DNA of 38,102 nucleotides from Thermodesulfobacteriota bacterium (GTDB taxonomy: Bacteria > Desulfobacterota > Desulfobulbia > Desulfobulbales > JBFMBH01). Positions 574 through 30,381 of this stretch are shown here, one piece after another. The DNA lies in assembly GCA_040755095.1 (NCBI GenBank), contig JBFMBH010000025.1:1-38102 (forward strand), in the 5' to 3' direction. A program made the position numbers and the translations under genes. Below the pieces are notes generated by a model that saw nothing but the letters and a program-made list of their open reading frames with translations, did not search any database and was not told the DNA's origin. Numbering within the stretch: position 1 is the stretch's first letter; each line of letters begins with the position of its first letter.

Positions 574-3500
574 CTACGGCGCGCCCTGCACCCCGGTATA
601 GTCTACGGTGCTCTGCCACTGCACCCAGTCGATAAGTCCCTGGAACAGGCTGCCCCCGCCCACGTCGGATCCGATGGCCGTATCCCCGGTCTCGATGTTG
701 ATGACATCGCCCTGGACCAACTGCCGGTCCGCGGTGTTCTGGCTCTGGCTGGCGTTGGTGCAGTTGATGTAACCGCTCCAGGCCTCGCCGGCGCCGTTGC
801 CATCCGTGCCCTGGTCGTCCACAAAGATGTCACCGGGGATGCCGGCAGCCTTGTCGCTGTTCCAGACCGCCCGCACCTGGTACCAGTGATCCGAGACCAG
901 GGGACAGACGAGATAATCGGTCTTGACCGGCTTCCAGGTCTGGCCACCGTGGGCGTCCACCGGCCGCACCCAGAAGGCGAAGGAGTACTGCCCGGCCGGC
1001 GCCTCGTATTCGGCCCAGGAGTTGTTCCGCCAGGCGGACAGCTGCCAGTTGCCGGTGGTGGTGGTCCGGGAGATGATCCGCTTGATGTAGTTGGCCGTGC
1101 CGCTGGCGCCGGTGGGCTTGACCCGTGCCTCCACGGTGAGAGCCCGGCCGTCCCCGCCCAGGCAGGTGTCGGCATCGGCAAAGATGATGGTGTTGGCCGT
1201 GGTGCCGTCGGCATGGAGGGAGCCGTCGCCGGTGAAGGTGGTGCAGGGGTTGTTGACCGTGCCGGTCAAAAAGCCGCCCGCATCCTGGGCCGTGGCGCTG
1301 CAGGACGGCTCATTGAGCGGGAAGACCGCCGGGTCCGGGCACAAGGAGCCGGAGATGGCCACCGCGGTCGTGTCCACCGCGATGCCCTGGTTCTCGAAAA
1401 TGGCGTTGGCCGCCGCTGCCACGGTGTCCACCCCGATGTCGTCGCTGAGATCCAGGGCGGCGGAAAGGGTCAGGGTGGCGGTGCTGGCACCAGCGGCATG
1501 GCTGACGCCGGTGATGGTGCGGCCGTTGTCCAGATCGGTGTAGACAAAGTCCGCCGGCACCAGGGCCCCGGTCTGACCGGGGCTGGTGTACACCCCCTCC
1601 GAAAAGGCCACGGTGATGGTTGTGGCCGAGGCCACCTTCGCGGAGAGAATCCTGGGCGCCACCGAGGCGTCGATGGGCGCAAAGTAGGTGACGTTCTTGG
1701 TGACGTTCCAGATCTTCACCTCGTCCAGCCGGCCGATGAAGTTGTCGTTGGGGGCCGACCAGTTGAGGCCACCCACCGACAGGGCCGAGGCGCACCACTG
1801 GCCGTTGTAGCAGACCTCAGGGTCCCGGTCGTTGTGGTCGGAGTAGGGGAACATGCTGGTCTCGCCGGTACCTGGCTGGGCATAGCAGGAGTTGACGTTG
1901 GCGTAGCTTGTCGTCACATCCTCGCCATTGACATAGATGCGGATCCGGCCCACCGAGCCGTCAGCCGGATTGCGGTCCGGGCCAGCGGCATCGTAGGTGG
2001 CGGCCACATGGGTCCAGTCGTTCAAGGGAATGGTCACCGAGCTGAAAGCGCCGCGCAGGCCGTTGCAGACCTCGGAATCCCAGCCCGTGGTGGGACCACC
2101 GCCGTCGATACTGGTCAGAAGTCCGACCTTGAGGGAGCCGTCGAGCTGCTTGAGCACCAGGGCGTAGCCGCCGTCCCAGTAGGTGTGCTTGGCCAGGATC
2201 TTGCGCTCGTTGGTGTCCGAGGTGGGGTAGACCCAGGCCTCCAGGGTCATGTTGTTCTTCATCTCGGTATAGACCCAGGTGCCATGATAGCCGGCATCCG
2301 TGGACCAGTACGCGTTCTCGGTGCCGATCTCCACCGGGTCGTCGCTGACCTCGATGGCACGGCCGACCTTGCCGGTGGTGAAGGCGCCGCTCGTCACCCG
2401 CCAGATGCCGTCCAGCTGCCAACCGCCGGAGTCCTGGAGGTTGTCGGAGAAGGCCAGATGGCAGGCCAGGGTCTGGTCCGGCGTCCGGATGCCGCCGGAG
2501 CCGTGGGCGTGGGAAATGCCGTGCAGGGTCGCTCCGGAGGCCTGGTTCATGCGGTCCGAGACGTGGCAGCTGGCGTTGCCGCAGGCCATGCCCGCATGCC
2601 AGTCGCTGTAATAGTAATGGCAGTTGTTGCACATGGTATTCCAGACCGACGTGAAGGTGCCGCCGTTGACATTGGCGCGGCCCAGGGTGCCGGTGCCATG
2701 GCCGGTATGGCAGTCGGTGCAGGAGAGGGTGAAGTTGGCACCGCCGACCCGCTCCAGGTGGGTGTACGGCTCCCGGGAGTAAAGCTGATCCCCCCAGCCG
2801 CGAGGACGTGCCGGCCAGCAGCTCGCCTCGTCCTGGCAATCATCGTTGTCCCAGCCAAAGGCCTTGCCACAGGCAAACCAGTTGGGGCAGGTGCCGTAGC
2901 CGTTGGGCTGATTGGCCGATTCCGTGCCATGGGCATCACCGGTCCAGTTGATACCAAAGGGCGGGCTGCCCGGCTGGCCATGGCAGGTGAGGCAAAAGGT
3001 GGCGTAGTCTGGCAGCTGGTCGCCGGGGAAGGAGTAGCCGCCGTTGGGCACCCGGTAGGTGCCGCTGCCGGCGTAATCGCTCATCTTCTCGCCGGCGGCA
3101 TCCCCCCAGACGTTGGTGATGTCGGTGATCCGGGTCACCGGGCTCTTGTTGTCCGGGGCCTGGGCAAAGGTGCCGGTCACCACATGGACGTTATGGCAGG
3201 AGACGCATTCCAGGGTATAGGTCGCGGCGCCGATGGCATAGGAGGCGCTGCCCACCCCGGGGTGGCCGCCATTGGCATGGCAGTTGGCGCACAGGGTCTC
3301 CTGGTTGGCCTTGGTCATGCCCGCAGCGGTACCCTGGCTACCGCCGTTTGTCACCCCGTGCACCTCGTGGCAGTCGGTGCACAGCTTGCTGCCATGGGCT
3401 GATCCCTCGTAGGCCGCCGAGGTGGTGTAGAACTGGGGATCATGGGTCGCGCTCTGACCCGGGGCATGGCAGTTGTTGCAGTTGGCGTTCTGCTGGTCGT

Positions 3501-4917
3501 TCTCGAAGCCGGCCGCAAGCCGCTTGCCGGCGTTGCCGAAATGGCTGGAGCCGAGATCGTGGCAGGCCGCGCAGCCCTGGCCGGCGGCCGGGTTGCCGGT
3601 GCCGCCGGCGGGCTGGAAGGAGAGCATCCCGTAAGTGCCGGCGGGCTTGCCGTGACCGGTGACGTAGAAGCCAAAGGTCGCTCCGTCGCCCAGCACGTTG
3701 AAGGCATTGTCGCCGCTGCCATCCCCCTTGGTGTTGCCCGGGGTGGCGTCGTGGCAGGAGCCGCAGAAGGATGCCTCCCCTTCCACCACCCGCCAGCTGC
3801 CGGCCGCTCCGGTATTGGAGCCGGGATACGCCCAGTACTGCTTGGCCAGGGCCGCCCCTTCGGCATGGCAGTTGTCACAGACCGTGGTCGCCTCCTTGTT
3901 GGCGGCCCCGTCCCGGAAGCTGGGCAGGTTGTTGGGCGCGTGGCACTCGATGCAGGCCAGGCTGAGCTGGGTGCCGGAGACATGGGTGGTGTGGGAGCGG
4001 ACCGTGCCATGGCAGGCGGTGGCGCTGCCGCAGCCGGAGCCGTCCGCCCCGCCGCCGCCACCGCTGCCGCCATGGGCAAAGCCATCGGTGTGGGCGTGGC
4101 AGTTGACACAGCGCGTGCCTTCCTGGCCACCGCCGATGTTCTCGTGATTCTGCTGGCTGCCCGTGCCGTCGTTCCGGAAATGGGTGGTCTGGGTGTGGCA
4201 GACCTCGCAGACCCCGTCCTGGGCACCGGTGCCGTCGGCAAAGGAATTCGGCCCGGTGGGCCGGAAGAAGCGGACCGTCCGGCTGCCGCTGTTGGGGGTG
4301 CGCAGCGTGCTCTTGATGTAATTGCCGTAAACGATGGCAAAGGGGTCGCCGGCGGTCGCCCGGTCCAGGTCAATCGGCCCGGCCACGGTCAAGGTCTCGC
4401 CCGTGGTATCGATGATCGGGTAGTTGAAGGAGACCTCGGCGGTGTTGGGCACCAGGAGATAGCCGTTGAACTGGTCCTCGGCCCAGCCAGCGCCGGTCAC
4501 AGTCAGGGTGGTGGCATCCACGGCCGAGGAGTTGCCGGACGCGACATAGCTGGCCGCCCCGTAGGTCCGGTACTGCATCTGCTGGTGCACCCAGTGGCAG
4601 GCCCGGCACTCGATGGACCACGTGCCGTAGCGGGTGCTGGTCTCCAGGCTGGAATGCGGCGCCACATGGGGCGCAATGACATTGTTGTGGCAACTCCAGC
4701 ACAGGTTGTTGTAGGCGGTGTCATCGATGTCCTGGGGCTCGTGCAGAACCCAGTCCGGCGGATTCTGGAAGGTCATGTAGTGACACGACAGGCAGCTCAA
4801 CGAGTTGACGCTGGAGTGCGGACTGTCCAGCCCCCGCCGATCCGCCTGCGCCACGCCATGGATCAACAACCCGCCAACAACCAGCCAGCCGATTCCCATC
4901 CTGCCCAGCTTCATCAT
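574..4917 (-). CDS. Giant multiheme cytochrome c with LamG-like C-terminal domains
   Basis: A 1447-residue exported protein. It has a signal peptide (residues 1-25, ending GVAQA) and 16 canonical CxxCH sites between about residues 42 and 766 (for example CLSCH 42-46, CWSCH 73-77, CTDCH 733-737, CNNCH 763-767). Two stretched sites, CGSATACH (CX5CH, 296-303) and CGNASCH (CX4CH, 779-785), bring the possible total to 18 hemes. Stretched-plus-canonical heme pairs are typical of Geobacter-type multiheme proteins. Residues about 820-1075 and 1200-1440 look like two LamG/concanavalin-like jelly-roll domains. The segment between them (about 1088-1190, with VAFSEGVYTSPG) resembles a SwmB/Ig-like module. 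This suggests an electron-transfer body fused to an adhesive or glycan-binding tail. A GGGGAGGCGG ribosome-binding site precedes the ATG. It follows the NHL gene after 53 bp, probably in one operon. The terminal electron partner is unknown. Confidence 0.9.
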   Translation of the reverse strand: MMKLGRMGIGWLVVGGLLIHGVAQADRRGLDSPHSSVNSLSCLSCHYMTFQNPPDWVLHEPQDIDDTAYNNLCWSCHNNVIAPHVAPHSSLETSTRYGTWSIECRACHWVHQQMQYRTYGAASYVASGNSSAVDATTLTVTGAGWAEDQFNGYLLVPNTAEVSFNYPIIDTTGETLTVAGPIDLDRATAGDPFAIVYGNYIKSTLRTPNSGSRTVRFFRPTGPNSFADGTGAQDGVCEVCHTQTTHFRNDGTGSQQNHENIGGGQEGTRCVNCHAHTDGFAHGGSGGGGGADGSGCGSATACHGTVRSHTTHVSGTQLSLACIECHAPNNLPSFRDGAANKEATTVCDNCHAEGAALAKQYWAYPGSNTGAAGSWRVVEGEASFCGSCHDATPGNTKGDGSGDNAFNVLGDGATFGFYVTGHGKPAGTYGMLSFQPAGGTGNPAAGQGCAACHDLGSSHFGNAGKRLAAGFENDQQNANCNNCHAPGQSATHDPQFYTTSAAYEGSAHGSKLCTDCHEVHGVTNGGSQGTAAGMTKANQETLCANCHANGGHPGVGSASYAIGAATYTLECVSCHNVHVVTGTFAQAPDNKSPVTRITDITNVWGDAAGEKMSDYAGSGTYRVPNGGYSFPGDQLPDYATFCLTCHGQPGSPPFGINWTGDAHGTESANQPNGYGTCPNWFACGKAFGWDNDDCQDEASCWPARPRGWGDQLYSREPYTHLERVGGANFTLSCTDCHTGHGTGTLGRANVNGGTFTSVWNTMCNNCHYYYSDWHAGMACGNASCHVSDRMNQASGATLHGISHAHGSGGIRTPDQTLACHLAFSDNLQDSGGWQLDGIWRVTSGAFTTGKVGRAIEVSDDPVEIGTENAYWSTDAGYHGTWVYTEMKNNMTLEAWVYPTSDTNERKILAKHTYWDGGYALVLKQLDGSLKVGLLTSIDGGGPTTGWDSEVCNGLRGAFSSVTIPLNDWTHVAATYDAAGPDRNPADGSVGRIRIYVNGEDVTTSYANVNSCYAQPGTGETSMFPYSDHNDRDPEVCYNGQWCASALSVGGLNWSAPNDNFIGRLDEVKIWNVTKNVTYFAPIDASVAPRILSAKVASATTITVAFSEGVYTSPGQTGALVPADFVYTDLDNGRTITGVSHAAGASTATLTLSAALDLSDDIGVDTVAAAANAIFENQGIAVDTTAVAISGSLCPDPAVFPLNEPSCSATAQDAGGFLTGTVNNPCTTFTGDGSLHADGTTANTIIFADADTCLGGDGRALTVEARVKPTGASGTANYIKRIISRTTTTGNWQLSAWRNNSWAEYEAPAGQYSFAFWVRPVDAHGGQTWKPVKTDYLVCPLVSDHWYQVRAVWNSDKAAGIPGDIFVDDQGTDGNGAGEAWSGYINCTNASQSQNTADRQLVQGDVINIETGDTAIGSDVGGGSLFQGLIDWVQWQSTVDYTGVQGAP

Positions 4918-8384: not shown

Positions 8385-9479
8385 TCAGGGAATGGACGGC
8401 GGTCGGACCACGATCTCTTCGCCGGTGAGGGCCTCGCGCAGGAACACCGCGACAGCCCTCTTCTCGACCGCGGACAGGAACAGGGGCACAAGCTTGCGGT
8501 TGCCGGGCCCGCCGCCCTGGTCGAAGAAGGTGATCACCTCCTCCAGGGTGGCGAAGCTGCCGTTATGCATGTAGGGGCCGGTGCGGGCGATCTCCCGCAG
8601 GGTCGGGGTGCGGAAGGCCCGCCAATCCTCGTCGTTCCTGCTCACCAGGTAGCGGCCCGGATCTTCGGTGAGATCCCGGTAGCCCTCGTAGCGGCTGACC
8701 TTGGCCACGAAGCGGCGGGTGGCCGCCACCCGAGCATCCTGAATCGGGTTCTCCGGCACATGCAGGGCATGGAAGCGGTCATCGGCCAGGGTCGGACCGA
8801 AATGGCAGTCCGTGCAGCGCCCCTTGCCGGTGAACACCGCCAAGCCGCTCTGGGCCTCCCGGGAAAGGGCCTCCTGGTCGCCGGCCAGGAACCGATCGAT
8901 CGGCGCTCCCCGGGAGACCAGGGTGCGCTGGAACGCGGCCAGGGCCAGCCCCACCCGGTCCCGGGAGGTGTCCTCGGAGCCGAACACCTCGGCAAAGGCC
9001 TGCCGGTACTCGGGCACCGAGCGCAGCTCCTCTTCCAGGAAGTCCAGATTCTGGTTCATCTCGAAGCTGGACATGATCGGAAACAGGGCCTGATCCTCCA
9101 GGGAGGCGCTGCGGCCATCGTGGAACAGGAAGCGGGCAAAGGCGATGTTGATGAGGGTGGGGGCATTGCGCCAGTTGGCGGTGGTGGGATAGGACAGGGA
9201 GATGGCCTGGCCGTCGGCGAAGGCCAGCTCGGGGATGTGGCAGGAGGCGCAGCTCATGGTGCCGTCCCCGGACAGGCGGCGATCGAAAAAGAGCATCGTG
9301 CCCAGGGCAATCTTGGCCGGAGTCAGGGGGTTGAGCCGGGATGGGGGCGCCTCGCCGAGAGGCAAAAGCGGGCCGCCGGCAGCGACAACCGGGCCGGCGA
9401 GGCCAAGGCCGAGCACCAGGAGCCACAGCCACCGGCGCGGAGCCCGGCTGCCTGGACGCCAGGGGTCAGGGGGCGGCAT
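8385..9479 (-). CDS. Di-heme cytochrome c peroxidase / MauG family protein
   Basis: A 364-residue periplasmic protein. The start is the ATG at 9479, overlapping the end of the upstream Sec-DsbA gene by 14 bases; the open frame extends further upstream but only as a shadow of that gene. An N-terminal signal or anchor (about residues 16-34) ends in VVAAGG. Two heme sites are seen, CASCH (77-81) and CTDCH (222-226), with the family context LxxGxxLFFDxRLSGDGxxSCASCH and, near the C-terminus, TPTLREIARTGPYMHNGS. Known members reduce hydrogen peroxide with electrons from small cytochromes, or (MauG) oxidise protein side chains. Lying behind a thiol/selenol oxidoreductase and formate dehydrogenase, a peroxide-detoxifying role in the periplasm is likely. 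Confidence 0.88.
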   Translation of the reverse strand: MPPPDPWRPGSRAPRRWLWLLVLGLGLAGPVVAAGGPLLPLGEAPPSRLNPLTPAKIALGTMLFFDRRLSGDGTMSCASCHIPELAFADGQAISLSYPTTANWRNAPTLINIAFARFLFHDGRSASLEDQALFPIMSSFEMNQNLDFLEEELRSVPEYRQAFAEVFGSEDTSRDRVGLALAAFQRTLVSRGAPIDRFLAGDQEALSREAQSGLAVFTGKGRCTDCHFGPTLADDRFHALHVPENPIQDARVAATRRFVAKVSRYEGYRDLTEDPGRYLVSRNDEDWRAFRTPTLREIARTGPYMHNGSFATLEEVITFFDQGGGPGNRKLVPLFLSAVEKRAVAVFLREALTGEEIVVRPPSIP

Positions 9480-10068
9480 GGGCGAGCTCCTCGTGCACGA
9501 TGGATTGCAGATAGTCGAAGGAGCGGTTGCCCACCACCTTGCGACCGTTGATGAAGAAGGTGGGGGTGTTGAACAGATCGAGCTGCCGGGCCAGCGCCAG
9601 ATCCTGCTCGATGGCCTCCTTGAAGGCCTGGTTGTCCAGATCCGCTTCGAAGCGCTGCCGGTCCAGCCCCAGTTCGTCGGCCATCCTGAGGACCGCGGGC
9701 CGATCCAGGCGCGGGGAACGGGCCAAGAGCAGGTCATGCATCTCCCAGTAGCGGCCCTGCGCACCGGCGGCCAGGGCCGCCAGGGCCGCGGCAGGGGCGT
9801 GATCCCGGTACTTGTAGGGAAAATTCTTGATCACCAGCCGGATCTTGCCAGGAAAGGCCGCAAGGAGCCGCTTGACGGTCGGACCGGCCGCCGCGCAGTG
9901 GGCTCACTGGAAGTCCAGGAACTCGACAATGGTCACCGGCGCATTGGCCGGACCGGTGCTGGGTGAGGAGCCGATGGGAACCTGGGCCCGCTCTTCAGCA
10001 GCCAGGGCCGCCGCTGACCGCAGGATGAGAAGGCACAGAACAGTCAGGACGAAAAGGCGTTTTGGCAT
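9466..10068 (-). CDS. DsbA-like thioredoxin-fold selenoprotein (UxxC), UGA decoded as Sec
   Basis: Read straight through an in-frame TGA at 9906-9904, the frame gives a 200-residue exported DsbA/thioredoxin_4-type protein. It has a signal peptide (1-24, ending ALAA), then VTIVEFLDFQ-U-AHC with Sec at 55 and Cys at 58 in place of the usual CxxC. The typical continuation follows: KNFPYKYRDHA, GRYWEMHDLL, and NTPTFFING with the cis-Pro. Both halves are complete, in one frame and in the right order, and the TGA falls exactly on the catalytic cysteine, which argues for selenocysteine and against a nonsense mutation. An AAGGAG ribosome-binding site precedes the ATG. Members oxidise, isomerise or reduce disulfides in the periplasm; which of these this one does is not visible. 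It overlaps the downstream peroxidase gene and follows the formate dehydrogenase genes, whose alpha subunit also needs Sec. Confidence 0.85.
9874..9906 (-). promoter_or_regulatory. UGA-Sec codon with candidate SECIS hairpin
   Basis: TGA occupies 9906-9904. Starting 11 bases after it, 9892-9886 can pair with 9880-9874 (six pairs including one G-U, with one C/A mismatch), leaving a five-base loop GGTCC at 9885-9881. A short stem with a GGU-containing loop at this distance is what bacterial SelB recognises. The pairing was found by eye; no folding energy was computed. Confidence 0.55.
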
Positions 10069-10097
10069 GGCAGGACTCCTTCTTGACTGACGGCAAG

Positions 10098-10187: not shown

Positions 10188-11330
10188 TCAGGCCTTGACC
10201 TTGGCCTCGTCCGGGAAGAGGGGCAGGAAGAAGCCAGCGGCCCGGAAGAGGATCACCCCCAGGGCGACGATGCCCAAAGTGATCACCACCTCCATCCAGG
10301 AGGGGGCATAGCTGGCACCGGTGCTGGCGCCGTGCCGGTACATGCCGGTGATGGCGATGTTCATCCGGTTGAGGATGACGCCGCTGATGACAAGAAGATC
10401 CACCCAGACCAGCCCCTTGATGCTGGTGCGGATGCTGCGGGAGACCAGGAGCAGGAGCGGCAGCACGACGCCCATCCCCATCTCCAGAAGATACATGTTG
10501 GCCTCGTACGACCCGTCCAGGGCCGTGGCCACCCCAGGACCGGTGGCCAGGGAACAGAGCTTGAAGACCAGATAGCCGGCCAGGGCGATGGTGGTCCCCC
10601 GGGCGAGGCCGGTCAGGATCTCCATGGGGGGCGGGTGGTTGAAGGCCTTGGCGCTCATGATCGACTCGAAGGACACCATGGTGAGCCCCATCATCACCGC
10701 CGAGACCAGGAAGTGGTATGGCATGAGGGAGCTGTACCACAGGGGGGAAAGCTTGTCGGGGGCGATGAGGTAGACCGCGCCCAGGGAGGACTGGTGGAGC
10801 ACCGACAGCATGCAGCCGGCCAGGACCGCGCCCACCATGATCTTGCGGACGAAGCGCAAGGGACCCTCAAGCCCCAGCCGCTCGAAGAGCATGGGGGAGA
10901 ATTCGATGGCCAGGACGGTGGTGTAGCCGATGACGTGCAGGGCGACGATGAACATGATGGAGTGGATCTGCCACATCACCGCCGGGTGCCAGATGCGGTA
11001 GGGGTGGCCGAGATCCAGCATCAGGGCCACCACCGCCAGGAGATAGCCCAGAAAGGCGGTGAGGACCGCTGGCCGGGCGATGGGCTTGTACTTCTTGATG
11101 TTGAAGAGATACACCGTGCCGGCGATGATGAAGCCGCCGGCCGCCATGGCCACCCCGCCCAGGAGGTCGAAGCCGATCCACAGCCCCCAGGGGAAGTTGT
11201 CGTTGAGGTTGGTGGCCGCCCCCAGGCCCTTGGCCAACCGGTAGACGGCGACACCGATGGCCAGCAGCACCACCAGGGAGGCCAGAGAGGTGGCCGGACT
11301 GAAGAAGGGGATCTTTTCCGAGGTCTTCAT
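10188..11330 (-). CDS. NrfD/HybB/PsrC-type integral membrane subunit of formate dehydrogenase
   Basis: 380 residues, strongly hydrophobic, with roughly nine to ten membrane segments beginning at residue 13 (ATSLASLVVLLAIGVAVYRL). FPWGLWIGFDLLGGVAMAAG is typical of the NrfD/HybB superfamily, which anchors periplasmic iron-sulfur subunits and passes electrons to or from the quinone pool without its own heme. The ATG shares an ATGA overlap with the end of fdnH, so the two are translationally coupled. This replaces the cytochrome b-type FdnI subunit of the enterobacterial enzyme, an arrangement common in sulfate- and metal-reducing bacteria. The stop is followed by a strong hairpin and then the Sec-DsbA gene. 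Confidence 0.88.
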   Translation of the reverse strand: MKTSEKIPFFSPATSLASLVVLLAIGVAVYRLAKGLGAATNLNDNFPWGLWIGFDLLGGVAMAAGGFIIAGTVYLFNIKKYKPIARPAVLTAFLGYLLAVVALMLDLGHPYRIWHPAVMWQIHSIMFIVALHVIGYTTVLAIEFSPMLFERLGLEGPLRFVRKIMVGAVLAGCMLSVLHQSSLGAVYLIAPDKLSPLWYSSLMPYHFLVSAVMMGLTMVSFESIMSAKAFNHPPPMEILTGLARGTTIALAGYLVFKLCSLATGPGVATALDGSYEANMYLLEMGMGVVLPLLLLVSRSIRTSIKGLVWVDLLVISGVILNRMNIAITGMYRHGASTGASYAPSWMEVVITLGIVALGVILFRAAGFFLPLFPDEAKVKA

Positions 11331-12100
11331 CGCCGTCCCTCCTTTTCCGCCACCTCATCCCGCCGGGTGACCACCCAGGCGCCCAGGCCCACCGCGAACA
11401 CCAGGCCGAAGATGGCCGGGATGTGGGTGATGTACTCCCAGGTCAAGGGCGGCAGGGGCCGCTTCGAGACCTGGGTCCGGAAGCCCAGCTCGGCAAAGGG
11501 CCGGGAGGCGAGGTAGATCCAGGACGTGCCGCCCGCCTCCTCCTTGCCGTAGATGTGGTCCACATAGCCCCCCTTGGCCAGCCGCCTTTCGGCTTCGGCC
11601 GCTACCTCCTCGGCCTCGCCGAAGAACATGGTGCCGGTGGGGCAGGTCTTGACGCAGGCCGGCAGCATGCCTTCCGCCAGGCGCTCGGCGCAGAAATCGC
11701 ACTTCTGCACCCAGGGCAGGGGGGACTCCCACTCGTACTTGGGGATCTGGAAGGGGCAGGCGATCATGCAATACCGGCAGCCGATACAGCGGTCGTGGCT
11801 GTAGGTGACCGGCCCGGTCGGGGTCTTGACCAGGGCCGCCACCGGGCAGACCGAGACACAGGCCGGGTCCTTGCAATGGAGGCACTGGTCCTTGATGAAG
11901 GTCCAGACCGGTCCGCCCTGCACTTCCTCCTCCACGAAGCGGATGAAGGTGTAGGTGTCCGAGGAGAGGCGCTCCGGGTTGGTGAAGGTGCCGCGGATGG
12001 TGGTGGGCCGGGTGCGGCGCTCGTTCCAGGCCTTGCAGGCCACCTGGCAGCCCCGGCAACCGATGCAGCGGGTGAGATCGACAAGGACGCTCTTGGCCAT
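11327..12100 (-). CDS. fdnH: Formate dehydrogenase iron-sulfur (beta) subunit
   Basis: 257 residues carrying the four [4Fe-4S] cluster motifs of the FdnH/HybA/DmsB family: CIGCRGCQVAC near the N-terminus, CLHCKDPACVSVCP, CIGCRYCMIACP and CDFCAERLAEGMLPACVKTCP. A single C-terminal transmembrane helix (about 222-245, IPAIFGLVFAVGLGAWVV) anchors it, as in FdnH. It carries electrons from the catalytic subunit to the membrane subunit. The ATG at 12100 has a strong TAGGAGG ribosome-binding site that overlaps the end of the alpha-subunit gene region. It lacks its own Tat signal, as is usual for a subunit carried out with its partner. Confidence 0.93.
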   Translation of the reverse strand: MAKSVLVDLTRCIGCRGCQVACKAWNERRTRPTTIRGTFTNPERLSSDTYTFIRFVEEEVQGGPVWTFIKDQCLHCKDPACVSVCPVAALVKTPTGPVTYSHDRCIGCRYCMIACPFQIPKYEWESPLPWVQKCDFCAERLAEGMLPACVKTCPTGTMFFGEAEEVAAEAERRLAKGGYVDHIYGKEEAGGTSWIYLASRPFAELGFRTQVSKRPLPPLTWEYITHIPAIFGLVFAVGLGAWVVTRRDEVAEKEGRR

Positions 12101-12109
12101 GGCTGCCTC

Positions 12110-15100
12110 CTAGACCTTTTCGATGTTGACCATGAAGGCCTTGGTTTCCGGGATCATGGTGTTGGCATCGCCGATGGTGGGGGTGAGGAGATTGGCCGAG
12201 TCCCCACCACGGCCGTCCTTGGGGTATTGCCAGCCGAAGCACCAGGGCATCCCCACCTGGTGCACGGTTGTGCCCATGACCTTGAAGGGCCGGAAGCGGC
12301 TGGTGACGATGGCGGCGGCAAAAATCTGCCCCCGGGCCGAGGAGACCTTCACCCGGTCGCCATTCCTGATCCCCTTTTCGGCCGCCAGCTCGCGGCTGAG
12401 CTCGATGAAGCTCTCGGGCACCATCTCCAGCAGCCAGGGCAGCGGCCGGGTCATGGCCCCGGTCTGCCAGTGCTCGGTGACCCGGTAGGTGGTGGCCACG
12501 AAGGGATAGCGGATGTCGCAGGACAGGAAGATGTCATCCAGCTCGGCGCTGCCCTCTGTGTAGAAGAGCTTGGTGGTGGGGTTGATGCGATGGGACTTGG
12601 AGTACGGGTTCTCCTGCAGGGGACACTCCAGAGGCTCATAGTGCTCCGGGAAGGGGCCGTCGTTGGGACCGGGTCCGAAGACGGAGGAGACGCCGGCCGG
12701 CTTCATGATGAACGGCAGGCTGCTCTTGGGGTTGTCGGTACCGTCCGAGCTCCGGAGGGGCGGCGCCGGGCCATCCGGCACATCGCCGGTCCACTTCTCG
12801 CCGGCCCAGCGGATGACCGCCCGCTTCTCGTCCCAGGGCCGGCCCAGCTCGTCCACCGAGGCCCGGTTGTAGATGATGCGCCGGTTCACCGGCCAGCTCC
12901 AGGCCCACTCCGGATAGAGGCCGATGCCACTCGCATCCTCGTCCTTGCGACGGGCCATCATGTTGCCCTTGCCGGTGTAGGAGCCGCAATAGAGCCAGTT
13001 GCCGGAGGAGGTGGAGCCGTCGTCCTGGAGAAAGGCGAAGCTGGGCACCAGGCTGCCCTTCTTGTAGACCGTGCCCTTGATGTCCTTGTCCACCAGAAAA
13101 TAGCCGTTGATCTCCTTGGCCACCGCATGGGGATCCACATGGGTGACCCGGCCGGCGCTGTCCTTGGGACCATAGTCCCAGGCCAGCTTCATGATCGGCT
13201 CCGGGAACGCTCCCCCCTCCTGGGCATACAGGGCACGCACCCGCTGGTGCAGCTCATTGATGATCTCGGCATCCGGCCGGGCCTGGCCAGCGGGCTCCAC
13301 GGCCTTGTACCGCCACTGGCCCCAACGGCCGGAGTTGGTGATGCTGCCCTCCTTTTCCACCGAGACGGCACAGGGCAGCAAGAAGACCTCGGTCCTGATC
13401 TCTGCCGGATTCACCTCCGGCCCGCGCCAGAACGAGCCGGTCTCGTTGTCGAAGATGTTGACGTTCACCAGCCAGTCCAGCTTGGCCAGGGCCTTGCGCA
13501 CCTTGCCAGCATTGGAGCCGGAGCAGGCCGGGTTCTGGCCCCAGGCGAAAAAGCCCGTAAACTTGCCCCGGGCCATCTGGTCGAAGAGCATCAGCCAGGA
13601 GGCGTTCTGGCCATCATCCAGCTTGGGCAGCCAGGCGAAGCCGAGATCATTCTCCGGGGTGGCAGCGTCGCCGAAGAAGGCCTTCAGGAGGGAGACCGAG
13701 TACTTGGGAAAGTTGCTCCACCAGTTGAGACTGCGGGCCTCCACGGTCCTGGGGGTGCCCTTGTCGTTGTAGACTGCCAGGCTGGTGTCGCTGGCGGACG
13801 GGGTCCGCAGGTAGCCGGGCAGGATGTGGAACAGGATGCCATAGTCCGTGGAGCCCTGGACGTTGCTCTCGCCGCGGAGGGCGTTGACCCCGCCGCCGGC
13901 GCGACCGATGTTGCCCAGCAGCAGCTGGATGACGGCCATGGCCCGGATGTTCTGGGTGCCCACCGTGTGCTGGGTCCAGCCCATGGCGTACATCACTGTT
14001 GCCACCTTGTCCGGTTTGCCGGTGCTGCCATAGGCCTGGTAGACCTTTTCCAGAAGATCCCGGGGGGTGCCGGTCACCGCCGAGACGCTGTCCAGGTCAT
14101 AGCGGTCATAGTGCTTCCGGAGAAGCTGCAGCACGCACCAGGGGTCGGTCATGGTGGGGTCCTTCTTCACCACGCCGGCCTCGTCGGCCTGGAAGGCCCA
14201 GGTCTTCTTGTCGTATTTCCGGGCGTTGGGGTCGTAGCCGGAAAAGACTCCGTCCAGCTCGCCGGGCATCTGGAACTGGGTGTTGACCAGGAAGCTGGCG
14301 TTGGTGTAGAGACGGACATACTCTTCGTGGTAAAGCTGGTGGTCGAGGATGTAGCGGATCATGCCCCCGAGAAAGGCGATGTCGGTACCGGAGCGCAAGG
14401 GGGCGTAGATATCCGCCTTGGCGGAGGTGCGGGTGAAACGGGGATCAACGCTGATGAGCGTCGCCCCCCGGTCTTTGGCCTCGGTGACCCACTTGAAGGA
14501 GATGGGATGGTTTTCGGCAGCATTGCTGCCCATGATCAGGATGACGTCCGCGTTGCGGATGTCGATCCAGTGATTGGTCATCGCCCCGCGTCCGAACGAC
14601 TCTGCCAGAGCCGCTACCGTGGCGGAGTGTCAGATACGGGCCTGGTGCTCGATATAGACAATGCCCAGGGAGCGGATCCACTTCTGCAGGAGATAGCACT
14701 CCTCGTTGTCCAAAGCAGCGCTGCCCACGTGGGCGATGCCATCGCAACGGTTGACGGTCTGGCCCTTGGCATTGGTGGTGACAAAGGAGGCGTCCCGGCT
14801 CTTCTTCACCCTTTTCGCGATCTCACTCAGGGCCCAGTCCCACTCCACCTCGTGCCATTCCGCAGCGCCCGGCGCCCGATACCGGGGCTTGGCCACCCGC
14901 TCCGGGCTGTTGACCAGCTGCAGCAACGAAGCGCCCTTGGGGCACAAGGCGCCGCGATTGATGGGGTGGCTGGGGTCACCCTCGATGTTCACCACCCGGC
15001 CGGCCTTGCTGTGCACGACCAGGCCGCAGCCCACCGCGCAGTACGGGCAGACCGATGTGGTCTGGGTAGCGTTTTTGATCCTCAGCTCCTCCTGGCGGGC

Positions 15101-15187
15101 TTCAGCCGCCATGGGCCTGGCCACTGCCGCGCCAGCGGCCAGCACCGCGCCGCTGCCCTTGAGGAATCCCCGTCTCGAGATCGCCAT
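12110..15187 (-). CDS. fdnG: Formate dehydrogenase alpha subunit, selenocysteine-containing, Tat-exported
   Basis: 1025 residues when the TGA at 14632-14630 is read as selenocysteine (residue 186), matching the usual length of FdnG-type enzymes. A twin-arginine signal (SRRGFLKGSG) is followed by a [4Fe-4S] site (Cys47, 50, 54, 82 in CPYCAVGCG...ALCPKG). The segment HQAR-I-U-H-SATVAAL...SFGRGAMTNHW is the standard active-site region, with Sec ligating Mo or W. The rest is the molybdopterin oxidoreductase fold and a C-terminal dinucleotide-binding domain. It oxidises formate to CO2 in the periplasm. The ATG at 15187 has an AAGGAGG site. The ten bases after the TGA resemble the E. coli fdnG SECIS region only loosely. 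It would be misannotated as two genes (start at 14581) if UGA were read as stop. Confidence 0.94.
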
Positions 15188-28907: not shown

Positions 28908-29555
28908 TCACTCTACGCGAGTCGTGGCCGTCTTGCAATGGGGGAGCACGGGGCTACCAGCCTTGCCAAGCAGCGCCTGCAGGTAGGCCCGCACCGAACG
29001 GGGATAGAGCGCCGCGCTTCTGCCCAGCCGCGGCAGACTGACCGCCTGCCAGTTGATCTCGTCCTCCACCGGGAGCCGGCCGCGCAGGTAAATGGTGTCC
29101 AGGACCGCCTTCTCCGGCCGGGCGAGAAAGGCGCCGTTGGCCGATTCAAAGCCCCAGAACAGGGATTCCTTGATTCGGGAATACTCGATGACCGCGCCTG
29201 GGAGGACGACCCGGTTCCGGCGGCCCACCGACGGGGCCAAGGTCACCACCGTGCAAACCGTGGGCGCCTGGTCCAGAAGGCCGTGGGCATTGAGGGCCCA
29301 CTCCGCGGAGATGTAGGACGGTGGCCGCAGAAAACAGGCGATCTGCTCAATCGTCGGCTCCTGGCCAGCAATCCGGGCCTTCCAGACATTGACATAGCAG
29401 CCACGGATCAGACGCGCCACATCCCCCCGCTTCACAGCCCGATTGAGCAGGATCTGCGGCGATGGGGCCAGTTTGCCGACATCCGCTGACCGGAACAGCA
29501 GCGGCAGGAAGGCGAGGATATCTTGTCTCCGCTGGTGCTTTCTAGAAGAGGGCAT
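28908..29555 (-). CDS. AbiEi-type antitoxin / transcriptional regulator
   Basis: 215 residues from the ATG at 29555; a TTG at 29570 is in frame but unsupported. The N-terminal winged-helix part (QILLNRAVKRGDVARLIRGCYVN) and the motifs SYISAEWALNAHGLL, VVTLA and RPEKAVLDTIYLRGRLP fit the type IV AbiEi antitoxin family, which binds its own promoter and counteracts the partner nucleotidyltransferase. It overlaps the end of the upstream toxin gene by 14 bases, so it is translationally coupled to it. In most AbiE modules the antitoxin gene comes first; here it is second. Confidence 0.85.
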   Translation of the reverse strand: MPSSRKHQRRQDILAFLPLLFRSADVGKLAPSPQILLNRAVKRGDVARLIRGCYVNVWKARIAGQEPTIEQIACFLRPPSYISAEWALNAHGLLDQAPTVCTVVTLAPSVGRRNRVVLPGAVIEYSRIKESLFWGFESANGAFLARPEKAVLDTIYLRGRLPVEDEINWQAVSLPRLGRSAALYPRSVRAYLQALLGKAGSPVLPHCKTATTRVE

Positions 29556-30381
29556 CGGGGAGGCTGGCAAGCACCCTGTGGACGGACGCGAGCATGGTCG
29601 GCAGATGGGTCGACTCCAGGGCGTCGGCCACGGCAGCGGGCACGAAGCGTTTCAGGTCGTCCAGAATCTGCGCCCGGGTGAGGTCGCCGTGCGCACCCAG
29701 ATCCCGAAGAACATCGGCGACCGAGCGCCGCTGCGTGAAATCGTACATCCTGATCTTGCGTGCCACAGTCTCGGGATCGGCCTTGACCCCACAGGTCTGC
29801 TCGAGAAACCAGATGTCCCAGAAATCTCGACCCTTGTACGCCGGCCGCTCCAGAAGAGCGCGCAGCTTGCCAGCCATGATCTCCGGCAGGGTCTCTGCCA
29901 GAAGGATGGCATGGGGATCGGTCTTGAGGCTGCCGCCCTGCAGGCGCTGCGCCACCGCCGGCAGGGTGCCCATGATCATCGGCTGGGTGTCGGGTCGCAG
30001 CGGACCGACGATCCGTTGAAACTCAAGCTTCACGGCAATCTTGCCGCGGAAGTTGGCCGGCGCAAACCGGACCCAGGCCTTGCCAAGGGGGCCGGCCATG
30101 CCCTCGGTCTGCAGCTCCAGGCGTCCGGGCCCCAGGTGCGCCACCAGATCGCGTCGGATCGCTGATCCGGCCTTGGCCAGCAAGGCACAGACCTCATCCG
30201 CCGCCAGGCAGCTTTCGAAGTCCAGGTCCTCGGAAAACCGGCTGCCGCCATAGCACCAGCGAAGGGCCGTTCCCCCCTGGAAAAAGAGGCCGGAGCTTGC
30301 CGGGTGACGAAAGAGGTGGGCAATGAGCACAAGTTGAATGATTTCAGCCCGTTGGATGTATGAAGCCTGCCATATCTTCAT
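29542..30381 (-). CDS. AbiEii-type nucleotidyltransferase toxin
   Basis: 279 residues. The nucleotidyltransferase signature is visible as FFQGGTALRWCYGGSRFSEDLDFE, with Gly-Gly at 36-37, and Asp52 and Asp54 as metal ligands. Further downstream are the family segments EIMAGKLRALLERPAYKGRDFWDIWFL. Family members inhibit growth reversibly by modifying RNA (studied relatives add nucleotides to tRNA), and some protect against phage. The ATG overlaps a palindrome (CTTCAT-ACC-ATGAAG), so regulator binding could hide the start. It leads the pair, which is reversed with respect to most AbiE loci. The pair sits between ftsB-like and cysK genes, which looks like an insertion into a housekeeping region. 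Confidence 0.87.
   Translation of the reverse strand: MKIWQASYIQRAEIIQLVLIAHLFRHPASSGLFFQGGTALRWCYGGSRFSEDLDFESCLAADEVCALLAKAGSAIRRDLVAHLGPGRLELQTEGMAGPLGKAWVRFAPANFRGKIAVKLEFQRIVGPLRPDTQPMIMGTLPAVAQRLQGGSLKTDPHAILLAETLPEIMAGKLRALLERPAYKGRDFWDIWFLEQTCGVKADPETVARKIRMYDFTQRRSVADVLRDLGAHGDLTRAQILDDLKRFVPAAVADALESTHLPTMLASVHRVLASLPDALF

Follow-up and report, generated by a model that had tools for sequence, protein, structure and literature searches.

The window analysed here, a 38,102-nucleotide stretch of contig JBFMBH010000025.1 from a Thermodesulfobacteriota bacterium (assembly GCA_040755095.1), raises the question of whether a gene with a TGA codon in its active site encodes a true selenoprotein, and what such a protein would do in a formate dehydrogenase operon. 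The gene, called Sec-DsbA below, and its surroundings are as follows.

8385..9479, reverse strand: di-haem cytochrome c peroxidase (CCP_MauG; PF03150, 165.8 bits), whose start overlaps the end of Sec-DsbA
9466..10068, reverse strand: Sec-DsbA, 200 residues, with a signal-like N-terminal helix, a DsbA fold, a UAHC active site and a terminal TGA stop
9874..9892, reverse strand: bacterial SECIS-like hairpin, from synonymous freezing of codons 60-65, covariation and an RNAalifold consensus
9881..9885, reverse strand: GGTCC apical loop of the hairpin, which 40 of 42 distinct orthologue sequences share
9904..9906, reverse strand: in-frame TGA at codon 55, interpreted as selenocysteine, the first residue of the CxxC-type motif
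10076..10083, reverse strand: Shine-Dalgarno-like AGAAGGAG, 7 nt 5' of the ATG, read from the sequence
10188..11330, reverse strand: NrfD-type membrane subunit of formate dehydrogenase (PF03916, 79.2 bits)
11327..12100, reverse strand: FdhB, the 4Fe-4S electron-transfer subunit
12110..15187, reverse strand: FdhA, with a Tat-type N-terminus, selenocysteine at codon 186 (TGA 14632-14630) and switch cysteines C855 and C890

Read on the reverse strand from 10068 to 9466, Sec-DsbA is a single frame of 200 codons whose sole internal stop is the TGA at 9906-9904, in the context VEFLDFQ-U-AHC. With this TGA taken as cysteine, a profile search gives 103.9 bits to PF13462 and 81.3 bits to PF01323, exceeding both Pfam gathering scores (23.2 and 25.6, respectively). 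The sequence-only reading had placed the TGA on the first active-site cysteine of a DsbA/Thioredoxin_4 protein, with the second cysteine kept and both halves in one frame; the single frame through DFQ-U-AHC agrees with it, as does TGA at that site in 52 of 52 members of the clade described below. It had also foreseen that standard gene calling would yield a 122-residue fragment, and translation table 11 indeed returns only a GTG-started piece of that length at 9466-9834. Because gene calling breaks at the TGA, annotation will probably overlook this fixed part of the formate dehydrogenase operon or label it a pseudogene. FdhA is similarly split by table 11 calling, into ORFs 12110-14581 and 14630-15187.

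The TGA is a fixed character of close relatives. Of those found by scanning GTDB genomes, the six nearest (50-61% identity), which come from Nitrospirota and Deltaproteobacteria, carry TGA at codon 55 without exception, and those below 47% identity mostly have TGC or TGT there. Orthologues of at least 50% identity occur in 40 of the 258 genomes of the order, each with TGA in the matched frame. Once duplicates are removed, TGA falls exactly at codon 55 in 43 of 43 close orthologues, and again in all nine further Sec members from other families of the phylum, far more often than chance would give; none of these relatives has a frameshift at the site. In a maximum-likelihood tree the 52 Sec members group in a single clade (ultrafast bootstrap 100, SH-aLRT 99), spanning two phyla at 45-63% identity, with 52 TGA codons and no cysteine. 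Its tree neighbours are all Cys or mix Sec and Cys, its sister groups have cysteine in the codon-55 column, and comparison with cysteine homologues finds this residue at the same position in more distant relatives. Selenocysteine is normally exchangeable with cysteine in thioredoxin-fold families; a clade of two phyla without a Cys member suggests that selenium is functionally required here. DsbA-like proteins with Sec had been called known but rare from the sequence: the kind is recognised, and the rarity holds only in part, with the gene in 40 of the order's 258 genomes.

The same genome contains a second DsbA-like gene (L075, G000:C24:37461-37937), of about 280 residues and 39% identity, whose active site contains a TGA too (SDFQ-U-PYC). 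Within the order, Sec and Cys forms occur side by side in its clade, and a formate dehydrogenase or peroxidase neighbour is absent in the stretches inspected.

The RNA downstream of the TGA is conserved as well. A scan of the window with Rfam returned one tRNA only and reported no bacterial SECIS, and the hairpin was tested by comparing orthologues. Its stem occupies nucleotides 15-33 counted from the T of the TGA, after an 11 nt spacer, with a 1x1 internal mismatch at 20/28. Codons 60-64 (Ala-Ala-Gly-Pro-Thr), which make up the arms and the GGUCC loop, rank first to fifth in synonymous conservation among 142 testable codons: given the amino acid, the same codon is used at a frequency of 0.95-1.0, against about 0.33 expected. 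Codon 65 follows with 0.66 identical against 0.28 expected. The pairs are formed in 87% of cases among orthologues and in 16-49% if the register is slid by 1-3 nt; compensatory two-sided changes occur at five of them (15-33, 18-30, 19-29, 20-28 and 21-27), and RNAalifold recovers the same hairpin unprompted. In the window copy, the GGTCC register (-7.7 kcal/mol) is nearly isoenergetic with a second one (-8.4 kcal/mol); across relatives, the conserved register is the GGTCC one. The hairpin with a GGTCC loop, noticed from the letters as beginning 11 bases 3' of the TGA, thus proves to be conserved as RNA in orthologues. The GGU of its loop lies at what we take to be the same distance from the UGA as in E. 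coli fdhF, whose loop is presumably alike; our literature search for a SECIS with a GGUC loop gave nothing. Two sister genomes (G201 and G202) have the loops GGGAC and GGTAC at L101 and L129, with TGA and protein intact.

The organism has the means to decode such a codon. Its genome (4.52 Mb, 99.8% complete) was searched family by family for the Sec machinery, all of whose parts named in the sequence-only reading are there: SelA (524 bits), the C-terminal wing domain of SelB (67.9 bits), SelD (347 bits, the match itself crossing one TGA) and tRNA-Sec (74.7 bits for a cut-off of 47; the next best match, at 40.6, is under it). FdhA, 4.7 kb upstream of Sec-DsbA, is the second selenoprotein in the window.

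These results bear on the simplest rival reading, that of a pseudogene, an assembly error or a frameshift, with the downstream half dead or translated separately from the GTG at 9834. The 122-residue ORF is all that table 11 calling offers, as this reading would have it. Against it stand the invariant TGA, the intact frames with purifying selection on either side of it, the conserved hairpin and the full Sec machinery. At third codon positions, 58% of sequence pairs differ 5' of the TGA and 56% 3' of it, compared with 9% in the hairpin; both halves of the gene are therefore under selection as protein, and the hairpin as RNA too. The GTG needed for separate translation is found in only 22 of 43 orthologues and is not conserved, so that this variant was rejected. 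We regard the whole reading as extremely improbable: for practical purposes, pseudogene, frameshift and sequencing or assembly error are excluded by the 52 of 52 TGA codons, the two-sided selection and the RNA conservation. Sec-DsbA is, very probably, a genuine selenoprotein and a thiol-disulfide oxidoreductase.

An AlphaFold2 model built with 30 aligned orthologues (pLDDT 94.2) shows a thioredoxin fold with a helical insertion, the (C/U)xxC motif where a helix begins, and a cis-Pro loop. The modelled protein has a single domain, lacks a dimerisation domain and begins with a hydrophobic helix at residues 3-21, and is likely to be periplasmic according to this model. Residues U55, H57, C58 and the TP cis-Pro motif, T168-P169, are invariant in the orthologues. 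The nearest solved folds, at TM scores of about 0.7-0.8, are the Silicibacter pomeroyi thioredoxin-like oxidoreductase 3gyk, Wolbachia alpha-DsbA2, ScsC and BdbD; unlike Sec-DsbA, they have CxxC and other partners. Sequence comparison leads to DsbA-type structures too.

Selenoproteins of this general type are not new. UxxC DsbA-like and DsbG-like proteins were predicted in 2005-2006 and figure in recent reviews (PMC1088965, PMC1794560, PMC2398784, PMC9312934, PMC13188914). The DsbA-like selenoproteins of Zhang and Gladyshev (PF01323), which occur in a few Deltaproteobacteria and some other organisms, have the same domain, with Sec first in the redox motif; the accessible text of these reports does not give the link to formate dehydrogenase or peroxidase (PMC1088965, PMC1794560). 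Some of the published DsbA-like entries may belong to the Sec-DsbA clade. The NCBI family NF041057 (Rcas_1661 family thioredoxin-like (seleno)lipoprotein, DsbG-like; PF13462) shares the Thioredoxin_4/DsbA-type domain with UxxC, and its model is matched by all 30 clade members scanned. We nevertheless rejected filing the window protein under it: the score is 88.3 bits for a cut-off of 190, only model positions 83-245 of 247 are matched, and the long N-terminal region of that family is missing. No association of a Sec DsbA with formate dehydrogenase and cytochrome c peroxidase was found in the freely accessible literature searched, a negative of little weight. Altogether, UxxC DsbA/DsbG-like selenoproteins are already recognised, and the Sec-only clade in its formate dehydrogenase and peroxidase setting constitutes a new subfamily, of which members may have been listed earlier.

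The sequence-only reading had noticed neither that setting nor the absence of Cys from the clade. The setting is highly regular. In 38 neighbourhoods the usual order is FdhA (Tat-type, with Sec), FdhB, membrane subunit, Sec-DsbA and di-haem peroxidase, followed 3' by FdhE or an AhpD-like gene and then FdhD/MoeA. Most relatives have a cytochrome-b-like membrane subunit where the window has the NrfD-type one. In six neighbourhoods (L108, L111, L128, L129, L134 and L135) a small AhpD-like gene (CMD, PF02627) replaces FdhE after the peroxidase, and is possibly a further peroxide-related member of the module. Elsewhere in the window, and judged by eye, a large protein that resembles a multihaem cytochrome and has many CxxCH motifs lies at 574-4917 and an adjacent pair of genes resembling AbiEi/AbiEii (type IV toxin-antitoxin) at 28908-30381, both on the reverse strand.

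A whole-gene search among the 258 genomes finds Sec-DsbA in 40, the peroxidase in 40 and both in 39. One genome, G169, only seems to lack Sec-DsbA: the tail of the gene lies at a contig edge directly before the peroxidase. Counting it, the order has 41 genomes with at least one of the two genes, and 40 of these have both, adjacent in the neighbourhoods examined. Only in G244 does Sec-DsbA lack an adjoining peroxidase, and there the formate dehydrogenase is absent beside it too. Formate dehydrogenase genes are found in most neighbourhoods; the co-occurrence of Sec-DsbA is tighter with the peroxidase. Among the nine divergent Sec members of the phylum, eight have peroxidase and formate dehydrogenase nearby and one lies on a small contig with peroxidase and FdhD. 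From these gene arrangements, it is reasonably probable that Sec-DsbA serves the formate dehydrogenase/peroxidase module. Since it usually sits between a Sec formate dehydrogenase and a peroxide-destroying cytochrome, it is a good candidate to protect or switch the dehydrogenase.

We propose that the UGA at codon 55 is decoded as selenocysteine by SelB and tRNA-Sec at the downstream hairpin. The product would be an exported, single-domain UxxC oxidoreductase of DsbA fold with Sec as its attacking residue, and a dedicated part of the formate dehydrogenase locus, which runs through Sec-FdhA, FdhB, the membrane subunit, Sec-DsbA and peroxidase to FdhE or FdhD. Its most likely job would be thiol-disulfide control or protection of an oxygen-sensitive periplasmic module, a role in which we infer both reaction direction and substrate. 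Because the genome encodes membrane reductant proteins of CcdA/DsbD type as well as one VKOR-type oxidase homologue, Sec-DsbA could be driven either way.

A substrate is suggested by the Desulfovibrio vulgaris enzyme FdhAB (6SDR), to whose catalytic subunit the FdhA of the operon is homologous. In FdhAB, a surface disulfide, C845-C872, leaves the enzyme oxygen-protected and nearly inactive when closed; the enzyme becomes active once the bond is opened, as by DTT in vitro (PMC11323313, PMC11134731, PMC13397495), and the switch governs activity and oxygen tolerance (PMC11323313, PMC13397495). The accessible part of the switch review mentions neither thioredoxin nor a physiological reductant. Aligned to 6SDR, the window FdhA has C855 and C890 at the positions of C845 and C872, and keeps Met405, so that Sec, this methionine and both switch cysteines are common to the two; the window locus, unlike that of D. 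vulgaris FdhAB, also encodes Sec-DsbA and the di-haem peroxidase. Of 40 FdhA beside Sec-DsbA, 39 have the cysteine pair, as does one of 21 without such a neighbour, figures that overstate the independent evidence because the FdhA copies are kin, largely one clade against others. C555, C606 and C734 likewise differ between the FdhA groups; the association of C855 and C890 is thus in part clade membership, and we dropped the use of all FdhA cysteines as evidence for the switch. Among the 21 are paralogous FdhA from the same genomes (L157, L158), with Gly/Ala at the switch positions.

Three explanations of the function have to be weighed. Sec-DsbA may open (activate) or close (protect from oxygen) the C855-C890 bond of FdhA, with the peroxidase removing H2O2, a narrower form of the module reading that is attractive but tentative and that we would not call probable. 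The distribution of the cysteine pair and the in vitro behaviour of FdhAB speak for it, as does FdhA of L184 (G253), a close relative that has neither Sec-DsbA nor peroxidase beside it and has serine at both positions, which makes it a natural comparison for this hypothesis. It is weakened by the lone exception L174, where the second position is Asn despite the presence of Sec-DsbA, by L183, an FdhA operon with both cysteines but without Sec-DsbA and peroxidase, and by D. vulgaris and D. gigas, whose FdhA have the cysteines too.

A somewhat less likely role concerns the peroxidase itself. CcmG and ResA keep CxxCH cysteines ready for haem attachment in other cytochromes, and Sec-DsbA might similarly keep those of the peroxidase reduced or correctly paired. 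The tighter co-occurrence with this gene is in line with such a role; so are the invariant cysteines of the peroxidase, which are its four haem-binding ones only, and the CcdA/DsbD-type reductants. A dedicated helper for a single cytochrome would, however, be unusual. Other c-type cytochromes of the genome, such as that of ORF 574-4917, do without an adjoining partner, and G244 has Sec-DsbA without a peroxidase beside it. It is unlikely that Sec-DsbA is a general periplasmic DsbA that forms disulfides, is recycled by the VKOR-type oxidase and lies in the operon for co-regulation only. The DsbA fold, its TP cis-Pro motif and the one VKOR homologue would suit such an enzyme, but the strict linkage to peroxidase and formate dehydrogenase and the presence in 40 of 258 genomes are unlike a housekeeping oxidase, and the genome has a second DsbA-like protein.

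The reading that involves the FdhA switch can be put in evolutionary terms, with the same caution: conceivably, the Sec-only subfamily arose in evolution to serve the switch as its dedicated redox partner, with the peroxidase as the peroxide-removing arm of a three-part oxygen-protection module. For CO2 reduction, W/Mo formate dehydrogenases that tolerate oxygen are in demand. The agent that toggles the protective disulfide in the cell is unnamed in the accessible text of the switch papers cited above, and Sec-DsbA is a concrete candidate for it. If this is true, Sec-DsbA would be the in vivo opener or closer of the FdhA switch.
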